Shown here in pieces: positions 44,842 through 64,000 of a stretch of DNA of 64,000 bases. Numbering within the stretch: the stretch's first letter is position 1; every line of letters begins with the position of its first letter. Made by a program: the position numbers and the translations under genes. Source of the DNA: a virus; the IMG/VR virus record IMGVR_UViG_3300035703_000043, positions 30,591 through 94,590 of that record; one strand, given 5' to 3'. The notes under the pieces were generated by a model. That model saw only the letters and a program-made list of their open reading frames with translations, was not told the DNA's origin and ran no database searches.

Positions 44842-46728
44842 ATGCCTCAAGTTTTTATAGGGGATGTTTTTGGATTAAGTTCTGTTTATGATAAACAAGT
44901 TTTAAATGTAGAAAATAAAAACTTTGCGAGTTGGCCTGAAAGTGCGACTTATGGTTATTTTGGTGGTGGTTTTGTTTCAGGTGCTGTTCCTGGAATTTTT
45001 AGTGCAATATCAAGACTTGATTTTTCAAATGAAACAGTAAGTAATCCAGGAAAAAACTTACCAACCGCAAGATATGGTCTAGCAGCAACCTCAAGTAGTT
45101 CTTATGGTTACTTTGGTGGTGGGGTTCAACCACCTTTTATCGTCACAATATCAAGACTTGATTTCTCTAATGAAACCGTAAGTGATCCAGGAAAAAACTT
45201 ACCATCAGTAAGATCGTATTTAGTAGCAACTTCAAGTAGTTCTTATGGATACTTTGGTGGTGGTTTTTCCCCACCTTACATTAACACAATCTCAAGACTT
45301 GATTTTTCTAGTGAAACCGTAAGTAATCCAGGAAATAATTTACCAACAGCAAGAAGGGATTTGGCAGCAACTTTAAGTAATTCTTATGGATATTTTGGTG
45401 GTGGTTATTCATTTCCAGTCGCAACTTATTATTGCACAATATCAAGACTTGATTTTTCAAATGAAACAGTAAGTAATCCAGGAAAAAACTTACCAACCGC
45501 AAGATATGGTCTAGCAGCAACCTCAAGTAGTTCTTATGGATACTTTGGTGGTGGTTTTACACCTCCTTATATCAATACAATATCAAGACTTGATTTTTCT
45601 AATGAAACCGTAAGTAATCCAGGAAATAATTTACCAACAGCAAGAAGGGATTTGGCAGCAACCTCAAGTAGTTTTTATGGGTATTATGGTGGTGGTTATT
45701 TTACTCCACTGCCAACTCATTATTGCACAATATCAAGACTTGATTTCTCAAATGAGACCATAAGTAATCCAGAAAAAAATTTACCCACAGCAATAGGTAG
45801 ATTAGCAGCACTCTCAGGAGGTCAATCAATAAATCGTGGTTCAAAGACTTATGGATATTTTGGTGGGGGTTCCACCCCAACTGAAGTTTCTACCATTGAA
45901 AGAATAGATTTTTCAACAGAAACTACATCAATACCAGGAAAAAATTTACCTCAAGCAAGATTTAGTCTATCGGCAGTTTCAAGTAATTTTTATGGTTACT
46001 TTGGTGGTGGCAGTACTTCAGCAAAATCTTATTTTAGCACCATTGATCGTATAGATTTCTCCAATGAAACCATATTGTCACCAGGAAAAAATTTAAGTGA
46101 AGAAAAACGTTATTTAGCATCACTGTCCAGTTATAGTTATGGATATTTTGGTGGTGGTCAACTGGCAACAGGATCTGCCATTAGTACCATAAACCGTCTG
46201 GAGTTTTCTAATGAAACTACATCAACACCAGGAAAAAATTTATCTACGGCAAGATTTCAGTTAGCAGCAACTTCAAGTAATTTTTATGGCTATTTTAGTG
46301 GTGGTGCCTATAACGATGGGACTATTGAACGTATGGATTTCTCCAACGAAATTGTATCAATAGGATACCAACCTTTACCGGTGGGGAGACATTCTTTAGC
46401 AACAACTTCAAATAATTCTTATAGTTATTTTGGTGGTGGTTATGGTTTTTCTTCTTCTTCAGACATTATCGAACGTCTTGATTTTTCAAACGATACTATA
46501 AGTAGTCCTGGAAAAAATTTATTATTTTCATTTCACGGTCTTTCGGCAACTTCAAGTAGTTTTTATGGGTATTTTGGTGGTGGATATTTTATTGATTTTC
46601 CTATGGGTGCTCCTTATATCTTTTCAACAGTACAAAGACTTGATTTTTCAAGTGAACTTGTGAGTCTTGCACCAAAAAATTTATCAACGGCAAGATACAA
46701 TTTAGCAGCAGTCTCAAACTCAAATTGA
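44842..46728 (+). CDS. kelch-like repeat protein 3 (predicted tandem six-bladed propellers)
   Basis: 628 aa and the most regular copy. Head segment NKNFASWPESATYGYFGGG, then repeats with nearly invariant RLDFSNETVSNPGKNLPTAR strands. Six blades precede the linker SGGQSINRGSKT and six follow (YGYFGGG x3, YGYFSGG, YSYFGGG, YGYFGGG). Neighbouring repeats in the first half are almost identical at DNA level, indicating recent expansion or gene conversion. Its stop overlaps the stop of the convergent minus-strand gene by 9 bp. Confidence 0.7.
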   Translation: MPQVFIGDVFGLSSVYDKQVLNVENKNFASWPESATYGYFGGGFVSGAVPGIFSAISRLDFSNETVSNPGKNLPTARYGLAATSSSSYGYFGGGVQPPFIVTISRLDFSNETVSDPGKNLPSVRSYLVATSSSSYGYFGGGFSPPYINTISRLDFSSETVSNPGNNLPTARRDLAATLSNSYGYFGGGYSFPVATYYCTISRLDFSNETVSNPGKNLPTARYGLAATSSSSYGYFGGGFTPPYINTISRLDFSNETVSNPGNNLPTARRDLAATSSSFYGYYGGGYFTPLPTHYCTISRLDFSNETISNPEKNLPTAIGRLAALSGGQSINRGSKTYGYFGGGSTPTEVSTIERIDFSTETTSIPGKNLPQARFSLSAVSSNFYGYFGGGSTSAKSYFSTIDRIDFSNETILSPGKNLSEEKRYLASLSSYSYGYFGGGQLATGSAISTINRLEFSNETTSTPGKNLSTARFQLAATSSNFYGYFSGGAYNDGTIERMDFSNEIVSIGYQPLPVGRHSLATTSNNSYSYFGGGYGFSSSSDIIERLDFSNDTISSPGKNLLFSFHGLSATSSSFYGYFGGGYFIDFPMGAPYIFSTVQRLDFSSELVSLAPKNLSTARYNLAAVSNSN

Positions 46729-52900: not shown

Positions 52901-52929
52901 TTGACACTTAAAAGTTGTTAATGTATGAT
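52901..52929 (+). promoter_or_regulatory. perfect-spaced sigma70 early promoter
   Basis: TTGACA 52901-52906, exactly 17 bp, TATGAT 52924-52929. Transcription should start near 52935-52937, right at the base of the first hairpin of the structured RNA below. Same layout as the promoter at 17555. Confidence 0.85.
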
Positions 52930-52935
52930 GAAAAG

Positions 52936-53031
52936 GTCTTCGCAACTTTGTAGCTTTGAGTTGCAAGACTCGTCCTGTGGTGGGGACGGTTTAACTGGTG
53001 GAACAACGGGGGTCTCTGACCCCTTTTTTTT
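52936..53031 (+). ncRNA. structured small RNA or leader RNA with three hairpins
   Basis: Begins at the predicted start of the promoter at 52901 and ends in the T-run of the terminator. Hairpin I: 52936-52940 with 52965-52969 and 52942-52947 with 52959-52964 (11 bp, one bulged C, 11-nt loop). Hairpin II: CGTCC 52971-52975 with GGACG 52984-52988. Hairpin III: GGGGTC 53009-53014 with GACCCC 53018-53023, then eight T. All three are perfect or nearly so in an AT-rich genome, which argues against chance. It may be a free ~96-nt regulatory RNA, or an attenuator or leader for the VWA gene that starts 35 nt later. No known RNA family was recognised by eye. Confidence 0.7.
53009..53031 (+). terminator. 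strong intrinsic terminator upstream of the VWA gene
   Basis: GGGGTC-TCT-GACCCC (6-bp GC-rich stem, 3-nt loop) followed immediately by TTTTTTTT. It would stop the transcript from the promoter at 52901 before the VWA gene unless read-through is allowed. Confidence 0.85.
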
Positions 53032-53065
53032 CTGCTATGATGAATGGAGTTCAAAAGCAAACCAG

Positions 53066-55255
53066 ATGTCGGTAAATCTAGAAGTTAAAGGAATGCTGGC
53101 TAAATGCCTTGCGATGGAAAATATTATCATTGAGCATAAAAAAGTTCCAACTGCTATGTTTGATGTTGAACGTAGGGTATTGACTTTGCCGACTTGGGAC
53201 AAAGCAAGTGATACGGTATATACACTTTTGGTTGCCCACGAAGTGGGCCATAGTTTGCATACCGATAATATTGACTGGACAAAAGATTACCCAGAAGTTC
53301 CTAAAGACTTTGTAAATGTTCTGGAAGATGTTCGTGTTGAACGTCTGATGAAGAAAAAGTATCCTGGTCTTTCTCGGACTTTCTACAATGGTTATAATGA
53401 ACTCAACAACGATGATTTCTTCTCCACCAAAGATGAGAAACTGGATGATTTGAGTTTTATTGACCGAATCAATCTCTACTTCAAGATTGGTGCATTTCAC
53501 AACATTGCTTTCAATGATGAGGAGAATGAATTTCTGACTCGTGCTTCTCTTACTGAAACTTTTGATGAAGTACTGCAACTTTCAAGAGAAATTGTTGAGT
53601 TTGTGAAATACAAACGTCAAAAAATCAGCAATATGCCCACTCCTGGTGGTGGTGAAGAAATGTCTGGTCCTGGTGGAGAAGAAGTAGAAACTCCTCAACA
53701 AACGTCGTCATCTGAAGATGGTGATAGTTCTAATGGAAAGAACAAAACTGAACTGGAGCAAGACTCACAGGGACAATCTCAATCTGAAGGTGAATCTTTC
53801 GGTGAAGAAATGTCTAAGTCTATTGAAGCACCAGAGGGTGGTGGATATGGTCAAGACCCAAGTGATAAGCACGGAAAAACTCTTGAAGATGAACTAAAAT
53901 CCAAAACTTCTCGTTCTTTTGATGAAAAGTCTAAAGATTTGGTGGATAAGTATGCTCAAGAAACTCATTATGTGGAACTTCCCAAAATGAATCTTGAGAC
54001 AATGATTATTCCCAATAATTATATTCATTATAAAGCAAAAGAGCATTATGCAAGTGTTGGTTCTTGGGTTCGTGATGCTTATGATATTGCTTGTAAGGAA
54101 TATAATACCTACAAGAAATCAGCAGAGAAAGAAGTTTCTTATCTGGTAAAGGAGTTTGAGTGCAAGAAATCTGCCGATCAGTATGCTCGTTCTAGTGTTG
54201 CTAGAACTGGTGTTCTTGATACGCAGAAACTTCATACTTACAAGTTTAACGAAGACTTGTTTAAGAAAGTTTCTGTAGTCCCTGATGGCAAGAATCACGG
54301 TCTTATTTTCATTCTTGACTGGTCTGGTTCAATGGGTGAATTCATTCTGGATGCATACAAGCAACTTCTAAATCTCATTTGGTTCTGCCGTAAGGTGAAT
54401 ATTCCTTTTGAGGTTTATGCTTTTACTCTTGATTGTCATTCTTATGCGGAACTGCAACCAAATCATCCTCCTGTCTATGAAAGGGTTGAGAATGTTCTAT
54501 CACCTGAGAATTCTTTCCGTTTGATGAACTTCTTCACCAGCAAAACAAATACTCGTGTTCTTGAAGAACAACTGAAAAATATTTGGGTTGCTTGTTACTT
54601 CTTTCAAAAGCAAATGGGTTCTGTTCCTCGTCATCTTGACCTTTCTGGTTCTCCTATTGGGGAATCTTTGATGGCACTACACTCTTTGATTCCTGATTTC
54701 CAGGCAAAAAATAAACTACAGAAGGTCAATGTCATCTTTCTGACTGATGGTGAGGGGTATCAGAATTCTGTGACAACTGAAAGAAAACTTGGAGATGGTA
54801 CAACCAGAATTGGTCATACCAAACACTCTCGGACTTCAATTCGTGATCGTAAGACTGGTAGAATCTATCAACCTTTGAATTACGATAACTTCCCTTTGTA
54901 TGCTAAAGTTCTTCTTCAAACAGTCAAAGATAAATTCCCTATGGTGAATGTGATTAACTTCCGTATCACTCCCAGTCGTGATTTTTCAAACTGTTATCGT
55001 TGGTATGGTGGTGGTCAGTCTTCGGAATACGAAAAAATCAAAACTGAATATCGTAAGGAAGGTTGTGTTCAATTCAAGAACACTGGGTTTGACCAATTCA
55101 ATGTAATTGCCTCTACTTCTTTGTCTCAAGATGAAGAGTTCTCTGTTCCTGAAGATGCTTCCAAAGCACAAATCAAAACAGCATTTGTGAAGATGTTGGG
55201 TAAGAAAAAGACCAACAAAAAACTCTTGAGTTCTTTTATTGGTCTTGTTGCCTGA
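53066..55255 (+). CDS. CobT-like VWA protein with HEXXH metallopeptidase motif
   Basis: About 729 aa from the ATG at 53066. An in-frame ATG at 52925 would run through the RNA and terminator and is rejected. N-terminal part: ERRVLTLPTWD and VAHEVGHSLH, an HEXXH zinc motif, followed after ~30 residues by NVLEDVRVERLMKKKYPG, the third-ligand type EDxRxE of CobT-like proteins. Middle: Ser/Gly/Glu-rich disordered linker (~200-290). C-terminal VWA domain with the MIDAS motif DWSGSMGEF and FLTDGEG. CobT is the VWA partner of AAA+ CobS ATPases; the CobS-like gene lies 1 kb downstream. Known in T4-like cyanophages, often annotated peptidase. The target of the pair in the phage is unknown. Confidence 0.8.
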   Translation: MSVNLEVKGMLAKCLAMENIIIEHKKVPTAMFDVERRVLTLPTWDKASDTVYTLLVAHEVGHSLHTDNIDWTKDYPEVPKDFVNVLEDVRVERLMKKKYPGLSRTFYNGYNELNNDDFFSTKDEKLDDLSFIDRINLYFKIGAFHNIAFNDEENEFLTRASLTETFDEVLQLSREIVEFVKYKRQKISNMPTPGGGEEMSGPGGEEVETPQQTSSSEDGDSSNGKNKTELEQDSQGQSQSEGESFGEEMSKSIEAPEGGGYGQDPSDKHGKTLEDELKSKTSRSFDEKSKDLVDKYAQETHYVELPKMNLETMIIPNNYIHYKAKEHYASVGSWVRDAYDIACKEYNTYKKSAEKEVSYLVKEFECKKSADQYARSSVARTGVLDTQKLHTYKFNEDLFKKVSVVPDGKNHGLIFILDWSGSMGEFILDAYKQLLNLIWFCRKVNIPFEVYAFTLDCHSYAELQPNHPPVYERVENVLSPENSFRLMNFFTSKTNTRVLEEQLKNIWVACYFFQKQMGSVPRHLDLSGSPIGESLMALHSLIPDFQAKNKLQKVNVIFLTDGEGYQNSVTTERKLGDGTTRIGHTKHSRTSIRDRKTGRIYQPLNYDNFPLYAKVLLQTVKDKFPMVNVINFRITPSRDFSNCYRWYGGGQSSEYEKIKTEYRKEGCVQFKNTGFDQFNVIASTSLSQDEEFSVPEDASKAQIKTAFVKMLGKKKTNKKLLSSFIGLVA

Positions 55256-55261
55256 CCACCT

Positions 55262-55287
55262 GGGGGAGTATTTATTACTCCCCTTTT
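55262..55287 (+). terminator. intrinsic terminator after the VWA gene
   Basis: GGGGAGTA (55263-55270) pairs with TACTCCCC (55276-55283) around a 5-nt loop, followed by TTTT. The T-run overlaps the TATAAATA late element, so the end of the early VWA transcript and the start of a late transcript are joined. Confidence 0.85.
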
Positions 55288-55294
55288 ATAAATA
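55287..55294 (+). promoter_or_regulatory. T4-type late promoter TATAAATA
   Basis: Perfect TATAAATA 20 bp upstream of the ATG of the capsid-targeted gene at 55315, starting in the T-run of the preceding terminator. Confidence 0.75.
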
Positions 55295-55314: not shown

Positions 55315-55758
55315 ATGAAAACTTTTAGGGAGTTTATATTGGAGTGTGAGTTGGTTGAGGGTAAAGTAGAGTGGGATAATCCAAAAAGACCACTACAATC
55401 TGGACTAACTCCAAGAGAAAAGAATAGAGCAAAGAGGATTTCTACTAATGTTGAAAATCCAAATAGAGTTTCATTTGGTGGAAAATCTTGGGATCTAAGT
55501 GATAAAGATTATGAGAGATATGGAAAACTAAAAACCGCACACGACGAACAAAAAGATAAAAAAGTTCCAAAAGATAAAATACATCAGTTTAAACAGACAC
55601 GAAATGCCGAAGGAAATCGTGCTGGGACAAGGGGGCAATATAAGAGAAGATGGAAAGACCAAAAAAATCTTCCAAATAACTCAAAACTTTGGAAGCAAGA
55701 TGAAAGACAAAAAGTTTATCATCATAATGATTTGAAAGAACCAAAAGAACGAAAATAA
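55315..55758 (+). CDS. probable head-packaged protein with capsid-targeting N-terminus
   Basis: 147 aa starting MKTFREFILECELVEGK. The first ten residues match the T4 capsid-targeting sequence MKTYQEFIAE in spacing, including the cleavable (I/L)xE (here ILE at 8-10, LVE at 13-15), so the mature protein would begin after one of these. The mature part is very basic (Lys/Arg-rich, KRRWKDQK) and is paralogous to the partial protein at 63424: both contain GKVEWDNPKRPLQSGLTPRE and EYERYGKLKxAHD. Likely an internal head protein, perhaps DNA-associated. Read from a perfect late promoter. Confidence 0.7.
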   Translation: MKTFREFILECELVEGKVEWDNPKRPLQSGLTPREKNRAKRISTNVENPNRVSFGGKSWDLSDKDYERYGKLKTAHDEQKDKKVPKDKIHQFKQTRNAEGNRAGTRGQYKRRWKDQKNLPNNSKLWKQDERQKVYHHNDLKEPKERK

Positions 55759-55762
55759 AGTG

Positions 55763-55795
55763 CAGACGTTATCATATAAATAATGATAACGTCTG
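55763..55795 (+). terminator. 13-bp perfect hairpin with a late promoter in its loop
   Basis: CAGACGTTATCAT (55763-55775) pairs with ATGATAACGTCTG (55783-55795) without mismatch, 7-nt loop ATAAATA, then TTTTA. It serves as a terminator of the preceding gene. TATAAATA at 55775-55782 (last stem base plus loop) is a perfect late -10 element. Confidence 0.8.
55775..55782 (+). promoter_or_regulatory. T4-type late promoter TATAAATA within hairpin loop
   Basis: Lies 24 bp upstream of the preferred HNH start at 55807. On double-stranded DNA it is a normal promoter; on the RNA of the upstream gene it becomes the hairpin loop. Confidence 0.6.
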
Positions 55796-55806
55796 TTTTA
55801 ATCTTT

Positions 55807-56253
55807 ATGGAAAAAGAAGAAAAGAATCGTAAAGAAAGAGAAAGATATAATGCTAAAATAAAGGATGATGTATTCAAAGAGAATAAAAGAAAAAGAGATT
55901 TAGAATACTATCATAAGACAAAAGAAATAAGAGTTGCCAAACAAATTGAAAGAAGAAAAGAACTTTTAAACGAAGCAAAATTATCTTTAGGTGGAAAATG
56001 TATTTGGTGTGGAGCAACTGAAAACCTTGAATTTGACCATATTGATGATTCAAAGAAAGAGAATAATGTGGGAAATGCTGTAAGAAATACAAGAGAAGTT
56101 TTTTGGAATGAAGTTAGTAAGTGTCAATTATTATGTGTAAGTTGTCATAATAAAAGGACTACCGCACAAAAAAGAGCAAAACAAAAACTATGGTTATCAT
56201 TGCCACTTGAAGAACGAGAAAGATTATTGTCGGATGAACTCAAGGACAACTGA
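55807..56253 (+). CDS. HNH endonuclease (possible homing endonuclease)
   Basis: 148 aa from the ATG at 55807 (MEKEEKNRKE); the in-frame ATG at 55783 lies within the terminator hairpin and is less likely. N-terminal half is a long basic helix (RKERERYNAK, KRKRDLEYYH). The C-terminal half is a Cys4 HNH domain: GKCIWCGATENLEFDHIDDS, then LLCVSCHNKRTT, with the zinc cysteines and the DH/H-N-H catalytic residues visible. Such free-standing HNH genes in T4-like phages are often mobile and sit next to conserved genes; here next to the CobS gene. Target unknown. Confidence 0.8.
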   Translation: MEKEEKNRKERERYNAKIKDDVFKENKRKRDLEYYHKTKEIRVAKQIERRKELLNEAKLSLGGKCIWCGATENLEFDHIDDSKKENNVGNAVRNTREVFWNEVSKCQLLCVSCHNKRTTAQKRAKQKLWLSLPLEERERLLSDELKDN

Positions 56254-56271
56254 CCAACTGTCCATTGCGGG

Positions 56272-56300
56272 CAGACAGGGAACCGAAAATGTCCTATACT
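56272..56300 (+). promoter_or_regulatory. possible early promoter of the cobS-like gene
   Basis: CAGACA (56272-56277), 17 bp, TATACT (56295-56300): four of six and five of six matches to the consensus, with the same 17-bp spacing as the two strong early promoters. It overlaps the annotated start, so transcription from it would favour the ATG at 56331. Confidence 0.4.
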
Positions 56301-57437
56301 GTAAGGGTAGTCAAGACAGACCAACTTATTATGGAAACCGCAATTGAACTGCTGAAGATAAAATTTGGCACAGAGTTTGGTGCAGAAGCAGTTCGTGCTG
56401 TTGCTGATGAACTCGGAACCAGTTATGCAACTCTTTCCAAGAAACTTTCTAACTTTAAAGTTTCTAGGGGGAAGTGGAATCTTGAAATTACTCAAGAAAA
56501 AATTGATGAACTTGAAGAAACCTATGCCTCCCCTTCTGTGGAACCTGTAGCAGTTATGGAAAATGTAAAGCAAAACCTTATTCCTGAAAAAGATGATACC
56601 TTCGTCAGCTTTGGCAACTTTACTGATGTTAAAAAAGTTGTTCAATCTGGGATTTTTTATCCTGTGTTCATCACTGGTCTCTCTGGTAATGGTAAAACTT
56701 TTAGCATTGAGCAATCTTGTGCTCAACTGAAACGAGAACTTATTCGTGTTAATATCACGATTGAGACCGATTCTGATGATTTGCTCGGTGGTTTCCGACT
56801 CGTGAATGGGGAAACTGTGTGGCACAATGGTCCTGTGGTAGAAGCAATGGAACGTGGTGCAATTCTTCTGCTTGATGAGATTGACCTGGCATCTAATAAG
56901 ATTATGTGTCTGCAATCTGTCCTGGAAGGCAAAGGTGTCTTTCTGAAGAAGATTGGTAAGCACGTTGTTCCTAAAGCAGGTTTCAATGTGATTGCAACTG
57001 CAAACACAAAAGGTAAAGGTTCTGATGATGGTCGTTTTATCGGCACCAACGTGCTGAATGAGGCATTCCTGGAAAGATTTCCGATTACCTTTGAGCAGGA
57101 TTATCCTACTCTTGCAACAGAGACTAAAATCTTGACAAAGGTTGCAGAATCACTTAACATTCCTATGATTGGTGAGCATACTGATTTCGTCAAACACCTT
57201 TGCACTTGGTCTGAGATTATTCGTAAGACCTTTAACGATGGTGGTATTGATGAAGTCATCAGCACTCGTCGTCTTGTTCATATCATCAAGGCATATTCTA
57301 TCTTCGGTAAGAAGGACAAAGCAATCAAGGTTTGTCTGAATCGTTTTGATGATGAAACCAAAACAACTTTCATTGAGTTGTATGATAAGATTGATGCTGA
57401 ATTTCAGCAAAATCAAACGCAAGATGTTCCTTTTTGA
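56289..57437 (+). CDS. cobS: CobS-like AAA+ ATPase
   Basis: 382 aa (alternative ATG at 56331 starts METAIELLKIKF and would fit the putative promoter). N-terminal ~80 residues look like a small DNA-binding or adaptor helix bundle (LGTSYATLSKKLSNFKVSRG). The ATPase core shows Walker A ITGLSGNGKTFSIEQS, a MoxR/CobS-type DLLGGFRLVNGE insert, Walker B GAILLLDEIDLA, sensor-like VIATANTKGKG and an arginine-finger region NEAFLERFP. CobS-type ATPases work with CobT-type VWA proteins, one of which lies upstream. Cyanophage cobS is usually linked to cobalamin (cobaltochelatase) function, but without CobN this is unproven. CTG-rich codons differ from the late genes. Confidence 0.85.
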   Translation: MSYTVRVVKTDQLIMETAIELLKIKFGTEFGAEAVRAVADELGTSYATLSKKLSNFKVSRGKWNLEITQEKIDELEETYASPSVEPVAVMENVKQNLIPEKDDTFVSFGNFTDVKKVVQSGIFYPVFITGLSGNGKTFSIEQSCAQLKRELIRVNITIETDSDDLLGGFRLVNGETVWHNGPVVEAMERGAILLLDEIDLASNKIMCLQSVLEGKGVFLKKIGKHVVPKAGFNVIATANTKGKGSDDGRFIGTNVLNEAFLERFPITFEQDYPTLATETKILTKVAESLNIPMIGEHTDFVKHLCTWSEIIRKTFNDGGIDEVISTRRLVHIIKAYSIFGKKDKAIKVCLNRFDDETKTTFIELYDKIDAEFQQNQTQDVPF

Positions 57438-57487
57438 GGGCATCTTGCCTATATAAGAACAAATCCTCTAATCCCCCACTGATTCCT

Positions 57488-57616
57488 ATGACTTCACTTT
57501 TTTTGGAAAAAGATTCGGATACAATCTATGAAGATTTTCAAGATATAACTGAAGATAATCAAGAGGAAGAATATAGAGAAGATAGAATGGATCAAATGAT
57601 TTCTAAGTATGGTTGA
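57488..57616 (+). CDS. small acidic protein
   Basis: 42 aa starting MTSLFLEKDSDTIYEDF. An upstream in-frame start at 57434 overlaps the cobS end and lacks support, so the ATG at 57488 is chosen. Strongly acidic (DITEDNQEEEYREDRMD), mainly helical. A TATATAA sequence at 57450 might be a -10 element. Function unknown. Confidence 0.45.
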   Translation: MTSLFLEKDSDTIYEDFQDITEDNQEEEYREDRMDQMISKYG

Positions 57617-57627
57617 TAGGAGGTCTT

Positions 57628-57768
57628 ATGATTCAAGAAATGGAAGAGATTATTAAAAACAATCATATAGAAGATCTAAAAGAGTTTGCCACTTATCTTG
57701 GTATAGATTTTGAAGATTACTTGGAGTTTTTACATCCAGATGTAGATTTTGACGATTACTCAAGATGA
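57628..57768 (+). CDS. small acidic early-type protein
   Basis: 46 aa: MIQEMEEIIKNNHIEDLKEF, then ATYLGIDFEDYLEFLHPDVD. Preceded by AGGAGG 4 nt before the ATG, the best ribosome-binding site in this stretch. Its TGA overlaps the next ATG (ATGA). Highly acidic; no known motif. Such proteins in T4-like phages often modify host functions early in infection, but nothing specific can be said. Confidence 0.6.
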   Translation: MIQEMEEIIKNNHIEDLKEFATYLGIDFEDYLEFLHPDVDFDDYSR

Positions 57769-57938
57769 CACAAGAACATGAAATTGACGGATATGTCAGT
57801 CCGAACAGAATGTGGGCAGCAGTTCCTTGGGTAAATGGAAAATATATTTCCATTTACAATGGGCAACAAATCTGTGTTCATCATAGTTTAGAAACTGCTA
57901 AAAAATTTATTCAAAGAGAAACCAGAAAAAGAAAATGA
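57765..57938 (+). CDS. small protein in overlapping early cluster
   Basis: 57 aa starting MTQEHEIDGYVSPNRMWAAV. Overlaps both neighbours by ATGA junctions, which indicates translational coupling. A short beta N-terminus with NGKYISIYNGQQICV and a basic helical end (KFIQRETRKRK). No catalytic motif; function unknown. Confidence 0.55.
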   Translation: MTQEHEIDGYVSPNRMWAAVPWVNGKYISIYNGQQICVHHSLETAKKFIQRETRKRK

Positions 57939-58183
57939 TTTTATCTATTGATGAAATAAAACAAGAAGATGATTTGGTTTTCATAAGAGCAGTTGTAGAA
58001 GACGTTGTGCAAACTTATTCTCAGACATATTATGAACCTGCAGAATATGGTCCAGCATTATGTGAGGCATCGTTTTATCTGGATGAAGATGATCAACTCC
58101 CAAAAATTGAAGAACAACTTTTAGAATACTTAAATAGTTTGGACATTTCTTGGGAAGTTCTTCCTAAAGATTGGGATTATTAA
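57935..58183 (+). CDS. small acidic protein
   Basis: 82 aa, ATGA overlap with the previous gene. Contains VRAV-like beta segments and a long acidic helix (EQLLEYLNSLDISWEVLPKDW). Aromatic and acidic overall; no recognised family. Likely part of the early small-protein cluster. Confidence 0.55.
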   Translation: MILSIDEIKQEDDLVFIRAVVEDVVQTYSQTYYEPAEYGPALCEASFYLDEDDQLPKIEEQLLEYLNSLDISWEVLPKDWDY

Positions 58184-58207
58184 AATAAAAATTGTTTCAT
58201 CGCATAA

Positions 58208-58450
58208 ATGAATTACTATTACGTTTCTTTCATTATATTTGCAATAGTTGCCTATCTTATAGTAACAGATAATAGTATTGCTACTGCTTTTAATTATGTG
58301 ATGAAACTAATTCGTTTTGATTTTGAAAAAATTAAATGGTGGATACAATATTCTCCTGATAATTTAATTGTTCGTTTATTGATTCGTAGAAGATCTATGA
58401 AGATGGCAAGGGAACTTATGAAAGAGTTTGAAGAAAAAGAAAAAAAATAA
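58208..58450 (+). CDS. small single-span membrane protein
   Basis: 80 aa. One N-terminal hydrophobic segment (residues ~6-19, VSFIIFAIVAYLIV) and a strongly basic/charged helix afterwards (RLLIRRRSMKMARELMKEF). Topology is probably N-terminus outside or in the membrane and basic tail inside. Small membrane proteins of this type are common in T4-like phages; function unknown. Confidence 0.55.
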   Translation: MNYYYVSFIIFAIVAYLIVTDNSIATAFNYVMKLIRFDFEKIKWWIQYSPDNLIVRLLIRRRSMKMARELMKEFEEKEKK

Positions 58451-58468
58451 TGTCTTACTGGTCCTTTT

Positions 58469-58476
58469 AATAAATA
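58469..58476 (+). promoter_or_regulatory. late promoter-like AATAAATA within a hairpin
   Basis: AATAAATA lies in the loop of CCTTTT/AAAAGG (58463-58468 with 58481-58486), 16 bp upstream of the MKTF gene at 58493. Same layout as at 55775, with a weaker stem. Confidence 0.45.
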
Positions 58477-58492
58477 AAAGAAAAGGTTTAAG

Positions 58493-58672
58493 ATGAAAAC
58501 TTTTCAGAGTTTTTTAGAGCAAGCAGAAGAAGCAGAAAAAAAAATTCTTGCGGATAAAAAACGTTCTGCTGATTATACTAAAGCACAAATTCGTGCTGGT
58601 ATGAGACATAGACTGCACGTTCACAATGAGTTAGAACAAAGACAAGAAACAGAAAAAAGAAATATGATGTAA
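58493..58672 (+). CDS. small capsid-targeted-type protein (MKTFQSFLEQ)
   Basis: 59 aa, beginning MKTFQSFLEQAEEAEKKILA and very rich in Lys, Glu and Arg. The N-terminus fits the MKTFxxFLE leader family, but the (I/L)xE cleavage site is less clear than in the other members (LEQ instead of LxE). The rest is one basic helix (HRLHVHNELEQRQE). Preceded by a late-like element. Probably an internal head protein; confidence is lower than for its relatives. Confidence 0.55.
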   Translation: MKTFQSFLEQAEEAEKKILADKKRSADYTKAQIRAGMRHRLHVHNELEQRQETEKRNMM

Positions 58673-58693
58673 GGCACTTAACTAAGTGTCACT

Positions 58694-58729
58694 CACCCTT
58701 CCCCAAAAACGAGTGAAGGGTGTTATAAT
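58694..58729 (+). promoter_or_regulatory. extended -10 promoter overlapping a hairpin
   Basis: TGTTATAAT (TG at 58721-58722, TATAAT at 58724-58729) is a perfect extended -10 element with no good -35. The TG pair is also the end of a CACCCTTC/GAAGGGTG stem (58694-58701 with 58715-58722). It would drive the gene at 58756; the hairpin may terminate the preceding one. Confidence 0.5.
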
Positions 58730-58755
58730 ATAGAGAGACCCACTCATACGTTCTA

Positions 58756-59010
58756 ATGGCACCTAAAAAAGAAAAGGAAGAAACAAAACCAGATTTTCCC
58801 CACGCACAGTTTCCTATTCTTGTTATACATAAAGATGGAAAGGAATTGAAAGACACTAAAAAGTGTTACTTTCAAAATATGAATCACGCAGAGAAATACA
58901 TCTCTAAGTGCAATTTCAAACAAAAAGATTATCAATTATTCATTAAACCAGGAACAAATGTGGAGACTGTGGTGCAAAGCACTGGGAGAAAAAGTAGGAA
59001 AAAACAATAA
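58756..59010 (+). CDS. small basic protein, unknown
   Basis: 84 aa, strongly basic at both ends (MAPKKEKEETKPDF and the C-terminal GRKSRKKQ). A middle section FPILVIHKDGKEL, CYFQNMNHAEKYISKC with two Cys reads as a small alpha/beta fold. Overlaps the next gene by 53 bp. The preceding extended -10 promoter makes it probably early. Confidence 0.55.
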   Translation: MAPKKEKEETKPDFPHAQFPILVIHKDGKELKDTKKCYFQNMNHAEKYISKCNFKQKDYQLFIKPGTNVETVVQSTGRKSRKKQ

Positions 59011-59164
59011 AGAAGCAGATAAGATTGCACTTATCAGAACAATTCTGTTTGCAACTTATTTGATAACTAACATATTCATATGTGCTGGTGTAATTCGTCA
59101 TTGGAATGACAGCACAGAAATTTATATTCAAGTTGATGGAGTTCAAAGTGGAACAACTTTATGA
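58958..59164 (+). CDS. small membrane protein, overlapping reading frame
   Basis: 68 aa, ATG located 53 bp inside the previous gene. Positively charged N-terminal helix (MWRLWCKALGEKVGKNNKEA) followed by a hydrophobic span (TILFATYLITNIFICAGVI). This architecture, with MWRLWxKALGEK, recurs in T4-like cyanophages as I recall it. Function unknown; probably an inner-membrane peptide. Confidence 0.6.
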   Translation: MWRLWCKALGEKVGKNNKEADKIALIRTILFATYLITNIFICAGVIRHWNDSTEIYIQVDGVQSGTTL

Positions 59165-59357
59165 TGATTGCTTTTATGTTCAAGAAAAAAAATATGGTCT
59201 CTGGTATTCAATAGATAAGGAAGGAAACGGACTTATTACATCGTTAACTAAAGAATCTTGTGTCAGTGCAACAAGACAATATTTAAAGTGGAAGCAAGAA
59301 AACCGCCTAAATGATGTAGGAGTTTCCTACGAGGGCACAGTGGGTGGAAAACTTTAA
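59136..59357 (+). CDS. small protein, unknown function
   Basis: 73 aa when starting at MEFKVEQLYDDCFYV (59136); a more upstream in-frame ATG at 59106 would increase overlap with the membrane gene. Beta-rich YGLWYSIDKEGNGLITSL followed by a short helix (SCVSATRQYLKWKQENR). It looks like a compact alpha/beta domain. Overlaps both neighbours. Function unknown. Confidence 0.55.
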   Translation: MEFKVEQLYDDCFYVQEKKYGLWYSIDKEGNGLITSLTKESCVSATRQYLKWKQENRLNDVGVSYEGTVGGKL

Positions 59358-59553
59358 ACACGGAGATAAAGTAATCTACATTGGTTGTACACAAGAACAA
59401 ATTAATTGGGGTTCCAATGATGACCCAAGAAAAATATTATTTGAAAATACTGTGTATTACGTAGAAAAAGTAAAAGTTCATTCTCAACATACAAAATTGA
59501 CTTTAAGAGGGATTTGTGGTAATTTTAATAGTGTCTGCTTTAAAAAAATATGA
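59344..59553 (+). CDS. small SH3-like protein with GTG start
   Basis: 69 aa beginning at a GTG (59344); no ATG is available in this frame upstream. The pattern NFKHGDKVIYIGCT, NTVYYVEKVKVHSQHTKLTL, GICGNFNSVCFKKI looks like a five-stranded SH3-type barrel. Its TGA overlaps the following ATG. Function unknown. Confidence 0.5.
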   Translation: MENFKHGDKVIYIGCTQEQINWGSNDDPRKILFENTVYYVEKVKVHSQHTKLTLRGICGNFNSVCFKKI

Positions 59554-59687
59554 CTAAAAGAACTTATACGCAAAAAGATGGAACAATTTGGGAATGGAAC
59601 GAAACTGCAGAACTTTCTAAGTTCATTAAACAACTACACACAAAAGAGCCAATTCCCCCAGTTAGACCCAACAACACCGTGGTTTGA
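59550..59687 (+). CDS. small protein MTKRTYTQKDG, overlaps the next frame
   Basis: 45 aa (MTKRTYTQKDGTIWEWNETA and PIPPVRPNN). The ATG overlaps the previous stop. The following gene at 59578 occupies another frame over 110 bp of this one, which is unusual. Either two genes truly overlap, or a frameshift splits one ancestral protein. Function unknown. Confidence 0.45.
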   Translation: MTKRTYTQKDGTIWEWNETAELSKFIKQLHTKEPIPPVRPNNTVV

Positions 59688-59790
59688 ATTTAATAGTTAC
59701 ATTGAGTGTTGTAACAGTTTAGGAAGACCAGTAAGAGTTGGTAGGTTTATAAGATATCAAAATTACCTAAAAGAAATAGGAGTATTATGA
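59578..59790 (+). CDS. small protein in an alternative frame
   Basis: 70 aa, starting MEQFGNGTKLQNF. The C-terminal half (PWFEFNSYIECCNSLGRPVRVGRF, with an adjacent YQNYLKEIG) looks like a real small domain; the N-terminal part is dual-coded with the gene at 59550. Its end overlaps the next ATG (ATGA). Confidence 0.5.
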   Translation: MEQFGNGTKLQNFLSSLNNYTQKSQFPQLDPTTPWFEFNSYIECCNSLGRPVRVGRFIRYQNYLKEIGVL

Positions 59791-60014
59791 GTGAGGGTTA
59801 TTGGTTTCATAAAAAATGGGGTCTTAAACAGAATACTCCTATGGATGATGTTTATGAACGTTTAACTCAACTTGAAAATGAAGTCAACAAACTAAAAAAA
59901 GAAAATATAGAATTGACAAATTCGTTGTATGAGGTTGAAAACAGATTACAAGCAAAGATTGACAATATTCATCCAGTAACCTACAATTTAAGTAATTATA
60001 CCCTTGATAAGTAA
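59787..60014 (+). CDS. small coiled-coil protein
   Basis: 75 aa with a long heptad-like helix (YERLTQLENEVNKLKKENIE and following) after a MSEGYWFHKKWGLKQ head. Probably dimeric or trimeric through the coiled coil. ATGA overlap at the start, TAATG overlap at the end. Function unknown. Confidence 0.6.
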   Translation: MSEGYWFHKKWGLKQNTPMDDVYERLTQLENEVNKLKKENIELTNSLYEVENRLQAKIDNIHPVTYNLSNYTLDK

Positions 60015-60214
60015 TGTACGAAAATTTAACACCTTATGAAAAGGCACTTGCTACTTTTGGTGATAGAGCAGCACTGATTGCTGGTCTTGAAATTAGTGAT
60101 AAACTCTCTCCTGAAAACGCATTTCAGGAAATCAAACGAATGTACAAAGAACTCAAAACACTTCGTAAAACTGAAAAAAGAGAGTGGGAAACTGCTGATT
60201 TGAGTGATGTCTGA
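60014..60214 (+). CDS. small helical protein, unknown
   Basis: 66 aa: MYENLTPYEKALATFGDRAA, IAGLEISDKLSPENAFQEI and a charged KTLRKTEKREWETADLSDV tail. The ATG overlaps the previous stop by one base. Resembles a small helical hairpin. No functional motif. Confidence 0.55.
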   Translation: MYENLTPYEKALATFGDRAALIAGLEISDKLSPENAFQEIKRMYKELKTLRKTEKREWETADLSDV

Positions 60215-60368
60215 AGATAGTCTCAAAATATCACAAAATGAAGATGGGTCCTTTTCAATGGATTGGGATCCACAAGACTCAAATTGGAAGTGGTTAAATG
60301 GATTGACTTCCAAAGAGATTCAGGTTATTATGCAAGAAGCAATCAAGGATTTTACTAATGGACTTTGA
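60207..60368 (+). CDS. small acidic protein, unknown
   Basis: 53 aa beginning MSEDSLKISQNEDGSFSMDW and ending EAIKDFTNGL. Overlaps the previous gene by 8 bp and the next by 11 bp. The WDPQDSNWKWLNGL segment is aromatic, the rest acidic helix. Conservation of overlaps is the only support for function; unknown. Confidence 0.55.
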   Translation: MSEDSLKISQNEDGSFSMDWDPQDSNWKWLNGLTSKEIQVIMQEAIKDFTNGL

Positions 60369-60945
60369 CTACAAGAAGCATTCTCTTGAACAACTTAAAA
60401 ACTGGGTGAGAGATGCTTTGGTTACTGCTGAAGTATCTCCACAAGAAATCTATGATACCATTAAAGGTGTTGTAAATGAAGAGTATCATTACTTCAAGCA
60501 TCATACTGGTCGTTGTTATGATCTTCTTGCTCTTCTAAATGGCAATGGTAAGGGGCATATTCAAGGTTGGGATGAATGGGAAGAAACTTATTATCCCGAA
60601 GAATCTCAAAAGTCTTGTGATAGAAATGATCCATCACCAGAATGTAAAAAGTCTTGGACTTCCTTCTGGGAAGAAACTGATGATGGTATGAAACCTTGTG
60701 GACATAGTGATTTGGAATACCAAGTTGCAAATTCCAAAAAAGATAAAGTAAAAAAGTGGGTTCTTCCTGTTGAAGAAACTAAAATTTCAGAAACTGATGA
60801 AACAGAATACTTTGTATCATTCCCTGATGATTTACTGGAAGCAGCAGACCTAAAAGAAGGTGATAAGGTAGAATGGATTGATAGTGGTGATGGTACTTGG
60901 ATGATTCGCAAAGTTACAAAACCTATTACAATGGAGCAATGTTGA
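60358..60945 (+). CDS. protein with C-terminal AbrB/MazE-like swapped-hairpin domain
   Basis: 195 aa. C-terminal ~40 residues (YFVSFPDDLLEAADLKEGDK, then VEWIDSGDGTWMIRKV) match the AbrB/MazE-type DNA-binding fold (xxxxLPxxlrexxxLkxGDxVxxxxxdxgxixlxk). The N-terminal ~140 residues are helical with CYDLLALLNGNG and ESQKSCDRNDPSPECKKSW. The domain usually binds DNA as a dimer and represses or regulates; a phage transcriptional regulator is plausible. The N-terminal domain is not recognised. Confidence 0.55.
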   Translation: MDFDYKKHSLEQLKNWVRDALVTAEVSPQEIYDTIKGVVNEEYHYFKHHTGRCYDLLALLNGNGKGHIQGWDEWEETYYPEESQKSCDRNDPSPECKKSWTSFWEETDDGMKPCGHSDLEYQVANSKKDKVKKWVLPVEETKISETDETEYFVSFPDDLLEAADLKEGDKVEWIDSGDGTWMIRKVTKPITMEQC

Positions 60946-61170
60946 ATGGCACTATCACAATCAGTTGAAGAATCTCTCAAAGAAGCAGAAGCATCTCTTA
61001 GGAATGCATTAGCATATGCTGCTCGTCAAGAACGTCCAATGGTTTGCAGTGTCATTGCGGATATGATTTCTCGCATTCAAACTCTACAAAGCACTGATGC
61101 AATTCTTGATAAACTTGAGAATCGTAAACCAGGAGACTCTGGTTTCTTTGGAACTATGTTTGGAGGATAA
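60946..61170 (+). CDS. small helical protein, unknown
   Basis: 74 aa, with a helix-rich N-terminus (SQSVEESLKEAEASLRNALA) followed by CSVIADMISRIQTLQSTD and a Gly/Phe-rich tail GDSGFFGTMFGG. The ATG follows the TGA of the preceding gene directly. No motif recognised. Confidence 0.55.
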   Translation: MALSQSVEESLKEAEASLRNALAYAARQERPMVCSVIADMISRIQTLQSTDAILDKLENRKPGDSGFFGTMFGG

Positions 61171-61529
61171 TGACTGAACCTAACGAATTTGGCAAAGCAA
61201 TGCAAGAGTGGTGGGATTCTGATGCTTGTAAAGAACTACAGAAATCACATCAAGAAAGTTTAGAACGAGCAGTAGGAAAGTATCACATGCTTTCCGAAGA
61301 AGATAAACTGGATATGGTAGAGGCAATTACTTATATTATGTGTAAAGCAGAACAAGAAGGTTGTTCTCATCGTGGTCTTATGGATGCTTTGGGTATCTAT
61401 CCCTCTGGGTTTTGGTGCCATTCTCTAATGGATACACATAATGCTTTATGGTCTGAATTTCATAAACGTAAAAATGATGCTGAGTTAGATCGAGAAATCA
61501 AGTTGTTGCAAGACTTTATTGAAACCTAA
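61170..61529 (+). CDS. small protein, unknown
   Basis: 119 aa, ATG overlapping the previous stop by one base. Charged helices (EFGKAMQEWWDSDACKELQK, EEDKLDMVEAITYIMCKAEQ) with LGIYPSGFWCHSLM in the middle. Three cysteines and one His are spread without metal spacing. Function unknown, probably an early regulatory or takeover protein. Confidence 0.55.
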   Translation: MTEPNEFGKAMQEWWDSDACKELQKSHQESLERAVGKYHMLSEEDKLDMVEAITYIMCKAEQEGCSHRGLMDALGIYPSGFWCHSLMDTHNALWSEFHKRKNDAELDREIKLLQDFIET

Positions 61530-61602
61530 AGACATTCTTAAGGAAACTGCATATGTATAGATATTATGTTAGGATATGCTGATAAAACGGGAGAAATGTT
61601 CA

Positions 61603-61758
61603 ATGAGTTTAAGTAAAGAAGAATTTAACGAAATGGATGTTTTGCGTAAAGCAATTTCGCAAAATCCAGCATATGTTCATCCAGATAAACAGGAACGATT
61701 TACTGAGCTCTTTGTAAAATCACTTTCATATGTTCATTCTCCTGCATACAATAAATAG
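61603..61758 (+). CDS. small protein upstream of the nuclease gene
   Basis: 51 aa from the ATG at 61603 (MSLSKEEFNEMDVLRKAI); an in-frame ATG at 61576 exists but GGGAGA sits better upstream of 61603. Charged, helical. Ends 22 bp before the next gene, with AATAAATA at 61750-61757 overlapping its end. Confidence 0.5.
   Translation: MSLSKEEFNEMDVLRKAISQNPAYVHPDKQERFTELFVKSLSYVHSPAYNK
61750..61757 (+). promoter_or_regulatory. late promoter-like AATAAATA
   Basis: AATAAATA lies 23 bp upstream of the HNH-like gene at 61781. The bases after it form a TAGATA/TATCTA inverted repeat (61756-61779). Confidence 0.45.
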
Positions 61759-61780
61759 ATATAAGTGTTTTTGTATCTAA

Positions 61781-62587
61781 ATGCTTGACGAAGCAAAGAA
61801 AAGAGAAAAATTGGCAAATGCCTTTCTTGCAGCAACAATGGCAGCATCTGCTGCCCAATCACCAAAAGATTTCGTAAGAACAGGACATATAGAAAGTCCT
61901 GGAACTGCTCTTATGCAAATATGGGCAAAGAAGAGAGGAGAAGCAGAAAGAAATCTTGATAGTGGTAGAGTTGTTGCAAGAAATAAAAAATTGAAAACAT
62001 TTAAAGAGTTTGTAGAAGAATCTTATATTGTTGAAGCACAAAAAACTTTCTCAAGTCGTGCAGAATTAGAAAAGCATCACGGTGGGATTCCTTCTGGATA
62101 TTATCCTAATAATGCAGGAAGCACTGAAAGTCCAAAGTGGAGATTGAAGCCAAAGTCTGGTGGTGTTAAGGAAAGACAAGCAAGAGCAGAAAGAATTACA
62201 AGTTTAAGTTCTCCAGAAGAGAGAGCAGCAGCAGATGCTAAAAAAAGGAAATTAAAAAAAGCAGGTCTTGAAGCTCATCATATTACTCCAACACATTACT
62301 CTGCAAAATTGAAAGCATCTATGACCGATGCTGAGTGGAAAGCAAGAAAGGCAAAAGATGCTGAAAGTGGAATCTATCACGGTCATCATCCCAAAAATGT
62401 AATGGGAGTAACAACAGAAAACACACCAGAAAGTAGTAGAAGAAGAGGAATTGCTCATAGAGCAGGTGGAGCACACGAATTGGAAGGAAAAACAAAAGAT
62501 TTATATTCTACTGCAATCTCTCATAAAGATTTGCTTTCTGCCGCACATAGAAGAAAGTTAAGAAAAGAAAGAGAGACAAATAAATAA
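61781..62587 (+). CDS. HNH-like nuclease with an internal capsid-targeting motif
   Basis: 268 aa. Residues 71-85 read LKTFKEFVEESYIVE, a capsid-targeting-like segment placed inside the protein rather than at its start; cleavage after VEE or IVE would release a C-terminal part. Residues 1-70 are Ala- and Lys-rich and helical. Residues ~158-235 contain AGLEAHHITPTHY, GIYHGHHPKNVMGVT and RRGIAHRAGGAHE. This His-rich arrangement resembles HNH/His-Me finger nucleases, with HH and N as catalytic candidates. It suggests a nuclease packaged in the head and delivered with phage DNA. The Asn/His pattern is not a textbook HNH, so the fold needs checking. Confidence 0.6.
   Translation: MLDEAKKREKLANAFLAATMAASAAQSPKDFVRTGHIESPGTALMQIWAKKRGEAERNLDSGRVVARNKKLKTFKEFVEESYIVEAQKTFSSRAELEKHHGGIPSGYYPNNAGSTESPKWRLKPKSGGVKERQARAERITSLSSPEERAAADAKKRKLKKAGLEAHHITPTHYSAKLKASMTDAEWKARKAKDAESGIYHGHHPKNVMGVTTENTPESSRRRGIAHRAGGAHELEGKTKDLYSTAISHKDLLSAAHRRKLRKERETNK
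62579..62586 (+). promoter_or_regulatory. late promoter-like AATAAATA
   Basis: AATAAATA overlapping the end of the nuclease gene, 18 bp upstream of the MKTF gene at 62605. Confidence 0.45.
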
Positions 62588-62604
62588 AAGAAAACCATAA
62601 GCAA

Positions 62605-63018
62605 ATGAAGACCTTCAAAGAGTTCCTGGAAGAAGCATATCTCGTTGAGATGCGTAAAGAAGATAAAGTGAAGGGAAAGAAGAAGACTCCACTTTACTTA
62701 GATAGAACTCATAAGACAATTGACCGTTCTCCTGAAGGTAGGTGGGAAAGAAAAGATATTACAATTAAAAGACCAAATCCTGAAGCACAAATGGGAAGAT
62801 TCAGACAAGGAATGGACCACAGACCTGAGTTTAGTTCTACTGGAGGTGCTGGATATGGTTATAAACGACAACCACACGGTAGTGGTGGAGAACTTCGTGG
62901 TGTGAAGAAAAAAGACCAACCAGCACCAAAATTTCAAGGAAGAACACCAGCACAAAAAGTTGCAGATAAAAGACAAAAAGCAGCATACACTGAATACGAT
63001 TACAAGAAAGGTTATTAG
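62605..63018 (+). CDS. basic head-packaged-type protein with capsid-targeting N-terminus
   Basis: 137 aa beginning MKTFKEFLEEAYLVEMRKED. LEE at 8-10 and LVE at 13-15 are candidate prohead-protease sites. After it the protein is very basic and Gly/Pro-rich (KGKKKTPLYLD, SSTGGAGYGYKRQPHGSGGE), likely disordered and possibly DNA-binding or packed with DNA. No enzymatic motif. Neighbours are the nuclease and the GNAT-like gene, both with the same leader type. Confidence 0.65.
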   Translation: MKTFKEFLEEAYLVEMRKEDKVKGKKKTPLYLDRTHKTIDRSPEGRWERKDITIKRPNPEAQMGRFRQGMDHRPEFSSTGGAGYGYKRQPHGSGGELRGVKKKDQPAPKFQGRTPAQKVADKRQKAAYTEYDYKKGY

Positions 63019-63029
63019 GGATATTCGTG

Positions 63030-63413
63030 ATGAAAACTTTTCAGCAATTTATTGCAGAGGCACAAGAAAAGTCTCACGATGAAGTAATGAAAACTATGAG
63101 TAAAAAGTGGGAAAGAAATAATCCTGGTTCTAATTTTAACGTTCAATTTAGACCTTCGGAAGATGGAAAAAAAGACCACATTTATCTTGGTTTAATTGAT
63201 GTGCAGAAAGGAAAAAGAAGAGCAGGAAAGGGGTCCAGATTTGTTCGTGGAATCACAAGATATGCGGACAAGCATAAATTGCCTGTAAGTGTGAAACCAG
63301 TAGCAGAAAAAGGATATGAAGATAAATTAAAGTCTTTTTATTCTAAACACGGATTTGAAGATAATAAGACTAAAGATATTGCACCCCATCCGATGATACG
63401 CAAACCTAAATAA
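63030..63413 (+). CDS. GNAT-like acetyltransferase with capsid-targeting N-terminus
   Basis: 127 aa from the ATG at 63030 (MKTFQQFIAEAQ; an extra ATG lies directly upstream). The IAE at 8-10 matches the T4 internal protein cleavage site. The rest fits a small GNAT fold: IYLGLIDVQKGKRRAGKGSR contains a (R/Q)xxGxG/S-like acetyl-CoA loop, followed by a long helix (FVRGITRYADKHK), and LKSFYSKHGFEDN is the typical fourth motif. Catalysis is plausible but the acetyl-CoA loop is only partly canonical. If packaged, it could acetylate a host protein at entry. Confidence 0.55.
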   Translation: MKTFQQFIAEAQEKSHDEVMKTMSKKWERNNPGSNFNVQFRPSEDGKKDHIYLGLIDVQKGKRRAGKGSRFVRGITRYADKHKLPVSVKPVAEKGYEDKLKSFYSKHGFEDNKTKDIAPHPMIRKPK

Positions 63414-63423
63414 AAATAAAACG

Positions 63424-64000
63424 ATGAAAACCTATCAAGAGTTTATTGAAGAAGCAAAGAAGTGTTGGCCTGGATATAAGAAGAAAGGCACACAAAAACT
63501 CTTTGGAAAGACTTATAATCGTTGTGTGAAAGAAGGTAAAGTAGAGTGGGATAATCCAAAGAGACCACTTCAGTCTGGATTGACTCCAAGAGAAAAGAAC
63601 AGAGCAGTAAGAAAAAGATTAGGTATTGAAAACCCTGATACTGATAAACCATCATTCTTCAAAGATGGTCCTGGTGAAAAGGAATATGAAAGATATGGAA
63701 AATTAAAAGCAGCACACGATGCTGAAAAAGATAAGGATGTCCCTGAAGATGAAAGACATAAGTTTAAGTCAGTAGCAAAAGGTCGTCTTGGTGGTGAGCA
63801 TAGTGCTGGTAGAATAAGAAGAATGGCAGGAGTCCATAAAGGTGCAGAGATAGCTAAAAATGCTGAAAAAGGGAAGGGTAGATATGCTGTAATGTCTCAA
63901 GTTCAAGGTGCAGAAAAAGTAAGAGAAAAACATAAGAAGAGATATGGTGATTATGCTGACTTGAAGAGATTGCAAGAACCAAAAGAAGAATTTGAGTATG
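63424..64000 (+). CDS. capsid-targeted protein with CWPGY motif (partial, runs off window)
   Basis: Open from the ATG to the window end (192 residues). MKTYQEFIEEAKK differs from the T4 internal protein leader MKTYQEFIAEA by one residue. Next comes CWPGYKKKGTQKLFGKTYNR, a Cys-Trp-Pro-Gly-Tyr motif, then a stretch paralogous to 55315-55758 (GKVEWDNPKRPLQSGLTPRE, EYERYGKLKAAHDAEKDKDV). The later part (KGRLGGEHSAGRIRRMAGV, KGAEIAKNAEKG) is basic and helical. Its real length and C-terminal domain are unknown because of the window boundary. Confidence 0.65.
   Translation, partial: MKTYQEFIEEAKKCWPGYKKKGTQKLFGKTYNRCVKEGKVEWDNPKRPLQSGLTPREKNRAVRKRLGIENPDTDKPSFFKDGPGEKEYERYGKLKAAHDAEKDKDVPEDERHKFKSVAKGRLGGEHSAGRIRRMAGVHKGAEIAKNAEKGKGRYAVMSQVQGAEKVREKHKKRYGDYADLKRLQEPKEEFEY

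Follow-up and report, generated by a model that had tools for sequence, protein, structure and literature searches.

Why do six genes near the end of a viral contig encode proteins with the same short leader? The window analysed here, the whole stretch of 64,000 bases, is the last part of the 94,590-bp contig IMGVR_UViG_3300035703_000043. Judged by its gene content, the source virus is a T4-like cyanophage: the record holds what we take from the sequences to be baseplate, fibre and CobT/CobS-like genes (CobS also by match), and, upstream of the window, presumably psbA, psbD, phoH and thyX. DNA matches to cultured phages fall nearly all within the CobS-like gene, at 72-78%, and the annotations of many cyanophages include a similar CobS gene. 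The CobT-like VWA gene (52925-55255) and the CobS-like AAA ATPase gene (56265-57437) flank the first gene with the leader, which starts at 55315.

Elsewhere in the window, 11188-16008 and 28229-36877 encode very long fibre-like proteins with collagen-like GTQGTQGLQG repeats. Three paralogous proteins with many YGYFGGG...RLDFSNET repeats (37563-39500, 40331-42229 and 44842-46728) are interleaved with sulfotransferase-like and glycosyltransferase-like genes.

Six proteins with a T4-type leader

The T4 leader reads MKTYQEFIAE/A, a slash here and below marking a cut or candidate cut. A leader of this type was found in six plus strand proteins between 55.3 and 64.0 kb, N-terminal in five and internal in one. 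The genes, named below by their start positions, and the promoter-like boxes ahead of them are as follows:

55287..55294, + strand: T4-late-promoter-like box TATAAATA, 28 nt before the 55315 start
55315..55758, + strand: 147-aa basic protein, leader MKTFREFILE/CELVE/GKVEW, candidate cuts after residues 10 and 15
58469..58476, + strand: late-promoter-like box, 24 nt before the 58493 start
58493..58672, + strand: 59-aa protein, leader MKTFQSFLEQ, with Q at residue 10
61750..61757, + strand: late-promoter-like box, 31 nt before the 61781 start
61781..62587, + strand: 268-aa precursor of N-module (residues 1-70, starting MLDE/A), internal leader and HNH-like cargo
61991..62035, + strand: internal leader LKTFKEFVEESYIVE of this precursor, residues 71-85, candidate cut after IVE
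62579..62586, + strand: late-promoter-like box, 26 nt before the 62605 start
62605..63018, + strand: 137-aa basic protein, leader MKTFKEFLEE/AYLVE/MRKEDK, two candidate cuts
63030..63413, + strand: 127-aa GNAT-fold protein, leader MKTFQQFIAE/A
63406..63412, + strand: CTAAATA box, 18 nt before the 63424 start
63424..64000, + strand: basic protein, incomplete as it runs off the record end, leader MKTYQEFIEE/AKKCWPGYKKKG

The five N-terminal leaders lie where the initial annotation had placed them, and the internal LKTFKEFVEE that it had noticed in the 61781 ORF was located at 61991, residue 71. Four of the five N-terminal leaders have (I/L)xE at residues 8-10, as it had claimed, the exception being 58493 with LEQ. 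Its statement that the mature parts are unrelated needs narrowing, given that 55315 and 63424 have EGKVEWDNPKRPLQSGLTPREKNRA in common. Between 58493 and 61781, a further gene (60358-60945) encodes a protein of 195 aa whose C-terminal domain is MazE/AbrB-like (Pfam E 3e-4, below the cut-off).

In T4, targeting is set by leader residues 4 and 7 and processing by residues 8 and 10 (PMC9026906). Aromatic residues at positions 4 and 7 of the approximately 10-residue leader are present in all six window proteins. I/L at 8 together with E at 10 is seen in 55315, 62605, 63030 and 63424, and these four canonical-leader proteins carry, at the level of sequence, the testable features of the T4 internal-protein class. 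The other two are regarded as variants rather than members of the T4-type capsid-targeted class, because 58493 has Q10 and the internal leader of 61781 has V at leader position 8, with IVE at 13-15. A second (I/L)xE site at residues 13-15 is found in three window proteins, and in the 62605 family it occurs in 24/24 leader-bearing members. Q10 is likewise a family trait (5/5 leader-bearing members of the 58493 family), and another small leader family has D at residue 10. A T4 leader with Asp at 10 is blocked in processing but not in targeting (PMC9026906); the Q10 family and the small D10 family are predicted to be targeted and left uncut.

With the record's own amino-acid composition, 8e-5 MKT[FY]xxF[IL]xE starts would be expected by chance among 477 ORFs. 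Scanned in six frames over its full 94,590 bp, the record showed no leader ORF outside these six places. Between the six genes, codons for the same leader residue differ synonymously in 31/65 comparisons, hence it is the leader peptide that is conserved, rather than DNA that was copied recently. The box NATAAATA is present within 35 nt of the start in 4/6 leader genes compared to 10/86 other ORFs (hypergeometric about 0.004), which would fit late expression.

Leader residues and head genes across viral contigs

A total of 253 unique leader proteins was collected, falling into 80 cargo clusters, 50 of them singletons. Across this set the conserved positions are the T4 functional residues (4, 7, 8 and 10). 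Among the 78 leader proteins that were not selected by pattern, E10 is present in 71 and [ILVM]xE in 70. Leader proteins are matched by the PHROG families 'internal head protein' and 'internal virion protein'; for those of the window, the match covers the leader only. As a positive control, the leader pattern also pulled out coliphage internal-protein families.

We examined 45 leader-bearing viral records for gp21 and gp23. A gp21 homologue and a T4-type gp23 are both encoded in 12/12 such records of at least 160 kb. Both are missing from five leader-bearing records of 105-146 kb, which may be fragments. The present record is itself a fragment, and gp20-24, including gp21, were not found in its 94,590 bp. 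The gp23 of relatives carries LxE at residues 54-59 and then A, S or T, as at the leader (LAEA in S-CRM01, LTEA in S-CREM2).

It could be argued that the leader, which is short, amounts to a common amphipathic N-terminus, or to a domain shared for some other purpose, and is no packaging signal. This appears extremely improbable, as the exact T4 determinants recur on unrelated cargos, a degenerate DNA pattern for the leader finds at least 120 stretches in the viral contigs compared to 0 for a scrambled-order control with the same codons, the leader co-occurs with gp21/gp23 and, as described below, 5/5 leader ORFs of S-CREM2 are in its virions. Leader-directed packaging is the likely reading.

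Virion proteomes of related cyanophages

The published virion proteome of S-CREM2, determined by mass spectrometry, lists 52/219 ORFs (PMC10665884 Table 3). A relaxed pattern, [MVL]xx[FYL]xxF[ILVMF]xE, written after inspecting the S-CREM2 N-termini, matched exactly five ORFs when the genome was scanned in six frames. Each of the five begins at an annotated start, and 5/5 are in the virion list of that table. These are a SAM hydrolase (MKDFDSFLEE), a kinase (VKRFDAFLTE), a cytidylyltransferase (MKNFSSFLTE) and two proteins with unassigned roles, ORF13 (MKDLHSFLTE) and ORF136 (MQTFSMFFSE). On the tabulated proteins, the chance of such an outcome is 6e-4, or 5e-5 among non-structural genes. A reversed-motif control gave 0, 1 and 1 matches in three genomes compared to 5, 2 and 5 for the leader. 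A possible location inside the capsid has been proposed for such S-CREM2 proteins (PMC10665884), and the passages of that paper on S-CREM2/S-CRM01 virion proteins do not mention the leader. The table also includes ORF12 of S-CREM2 (L252:7704-10313), a Cas9-like nuclease with an internal leader-like RFASFMAE/A at residues 18-25.

A virion-reported kinase of S-CRM01 has the N-terminus MISFDQFLSE. The S-SZBM1 proteome is shallower (30 proteins), and one of two leader-type proteins was detected in it. The detected one is a cytidylyltransferase with MRFRQFIIE/A, a leader one residue shorter that the relaxed pattern misses; the gene with MKSFKSFLSE was not detected among the 30. The published virion proteomes speak for packaging in S-CREM2, where the listed virion proteins provide the strongest support, and more weakly in S-SZBM1.

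The internal leader of the 61781 precursor

The leader of 61781 lies behind a conserved 70-aa module. A TTG codon sits exactly at this leader, and in contigs L145 and L148 the same HNH-like cargo begins with an N-terminal ATG leader, so that the gene might be thought to start at TTG (61991), with an N-terminal leader and a separate upstream module. However, most relatives have AAA or AAG as the codon preceding KTF, residues 1-70 are conserved in frame (53-91% identity), and a late-promoter-like box precedes the 61781 ATG. The TTG start is very improbable and was rejected; because the codon is AAA/AAG in most relatives, the leader is truly internal rather than a missed start.

The N-module starts M[IL]xE/[AG], with x variable; residue 2 is I/L in 32/33 cases, E and A/G having been set by the search pattern. 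In contigs L185 and L206 it lies within longer ORFs, after IVE and VSE, and among relatives one N-module precedes differing cargos. Because the 70-aa module begins with its own gp21-type site, 61781 may act as a small polyprotein. We put forward, tentatively and with slightly more doubt than belief, that the T4-type capsid-targeting element also works internally, a module bounded by gp21-type sites being followed by leader and interchangeable cargo in a gp21-processed polyprotein that would deliver several peptides to the head, and that the Q10/D10 class is packaged uncut.

The cargo of 61781 has an invariant HH...YHG...N...H, typical of HNH nucleases, with a sub-threshold Pfam HNH_2 match (E=0.075). 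Its structural model is weak (pTM 0.44) with no PDB match, and a fold assignment was rejected on these grounds. For the other window cargos, Pfam yielded nothing useful. In two relatives, fusion proteins of 533 and 694 aa (L205:4001-5599 and L208:4001-6082) combine what the window encodes in separate genes: the N-module, CWxGYxKKG modules and the MRKEDK module. The T4-GC119 protein, which contains a CWPGYKKKG module, was set aside as a virion protein, the basis being a 'structural protein' annotation in S-P4.

Cargo identity and exchange

The initial annotation had listed a GNAT-like protein among the cargos, and the modelled 63030 protein indeed has the GNAT fold (pLDDT 82), with Foldseek probability 1.00 to Naa50, AcrVA5 and TacT (E from 4e-4). 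AcrVA5 is an anti-CRISPR acetyltransferase. The glycine-rich RxxGxG-type stretch (acetyl-CoA motif A) conserved in the family is degenerate in the 63030 protein, and acetyltransferase activity is putative. All 16 relatives are leader-bearing, one as MKSY, and the homologues in S-CRM01 and B23 have 64-71% identity. The protein also resembles a domain of the DarB-like anti-restriction proteins of phages Skulduggery and Parlo. The 55315, 62605 and 63424 products are basic proteins with unassigned roles; relatives of the last are about 280-440 aa.

The gene order HNH-62605-63424 is kept in L249 and also in L248, there without GNAT between, and in L250 the GNAT gene comes after the N-module gene. 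Comparison of these orders thus indicates that cargos swap under a constant leader. Leader-tagged cargos in other phages include an ADP-ribosyltransferase, a SAM lyase, a nucleotidyltransferase and others. One of them, L033:6037-6813, is a leader-tagged ART-PolyVal ADP-ribosyltransferase (Pfam E 1e-23), a parallel to Alt of the T4 head.

A net basic character is seen in about 95% of the 253 leader proteins, and T4 core proteins are likewise gp21 substrates (PMC9026906). Hence, the leader proteins could instead be prohead core, scaffold or DNA-condensing parts, cut up or left behind as basic peptides that play no part in the next host. We consider this rather unlikely overall: cargo differs between close relatives, whereas essential scaffold parts would be conserved; the cargos include enzyme domains (GNAT, ADP-ribosyltransferase, SAM hydrolase, kinase, cytidylyltransferase); and T4 Ip1-3 turned out to be restriction inhibitors (PMC12373910). 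Individual small basic cargos may nevertheless be core or DNA-condensing proteins, while the GNAT and HNH-like cargos would fit effectors.

Proposed mechanism

In our preferred reading, the region forms an island, expressed late, that encodes proteins packaged in the head of a T4-like cyanophage. Each protein would carry a capsid-targeting sequence whose aromatic residues 4 and 7 direct entry into the prohead core. The prohead protease gp21 would then cut after (I/L)xE, at residue 10 and/or about 15, freeing the cargo in the head, from which it would leave with the DNA at infection. In the 61781 precursor, the internal leader would follow a 70-aa module with its own gp21-type site. Taken as a whole, we hold this to be the best explanation with good confidence. 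Cleavage of most of the six window proteins is probable and, by analogy to the T4 internal proteins and Alt, injection of the cargo is plausible. We infer packaging and cleavage of these particular window proteins, as well as early takeover or anti-defence roles. The idea of the initial annotation that the phage packages a set of effectors is strongly supported as regards packaging, by the retained T4 residues, the co-occurrence with gp21/gp23, the late-promoter-like boxes and the virion mass spectrometry of relatives; its effector part would fit some cargos, as set out above.

A simple sequence tag could in this way predict head-packaged hypothetical genes in abundant aquatic T4-like phages, and head packaging would imply probable delivery at time zero of infection. 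The leader can explain why cyanophage virions contain a SAM hydrolase, a kinase and a Cas9-like nuclease. It also points to candidate proteins for anti-defence or takeover (GNAT, ADP-ribosyltransferase, SAM lyase, HNH-like). For this phage, at least six tagged proteins suggest swappable cargo that is packed with the DNA and probably delivered into the next host cell.

Comparison with known systems

The 63424 leader differs from that of T4 at one of ten residues. The T4 proteins IPI, IPII and IPIII (PMC9026906, PMC12373910) share with the window proteins the same leader, the positions for targeting and cleavage, small basic cargos and variability of cargo, and all three leader-tagged T4 Ips inhibit GmrSD restriction enzymes (PMC12373910). 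The window differs in its cyanophage host and in GNAT, HNH-like and other cargos, which replace the known IP families. As read from the sequences, what is new relative to T4 is the internal leader behind a 70-aa module with a gp21-like site, the second site in three proteins and the predicted-uncleavable Q10 class. A literature search, with subscription papers and preprints outside its scope, returned no report of the leader in cyanophages.

T4 Alt is a head-packaged ADP-ribosyltransferase that is cut by gp21, losing a 7-residue propeptide. The likeness lies in a packaged, gp21-cut enzyme, echoed by the leader-tagged ART-PolyVal proteins of other viral contigs; among the window cargos, no Alt-like protein was found. 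The SAM hydrolase, kinase and cytidylyltransferase reported for S-CREM2/S-CRM01 virions (PMC10665884) have the relaxed leader, and the strict form is found on members of their families in viral contigs. The cargos of these listed virion proteins are other than those of the window. P1 DarB-like or polyvalent proteins are head-packaged anti-restriction proteins. In the DarB-like proteins the GNAT-resembling domain is part of a larger protein, whereas the window GNAT stands alone as a small cargo behind a T4-type leader.
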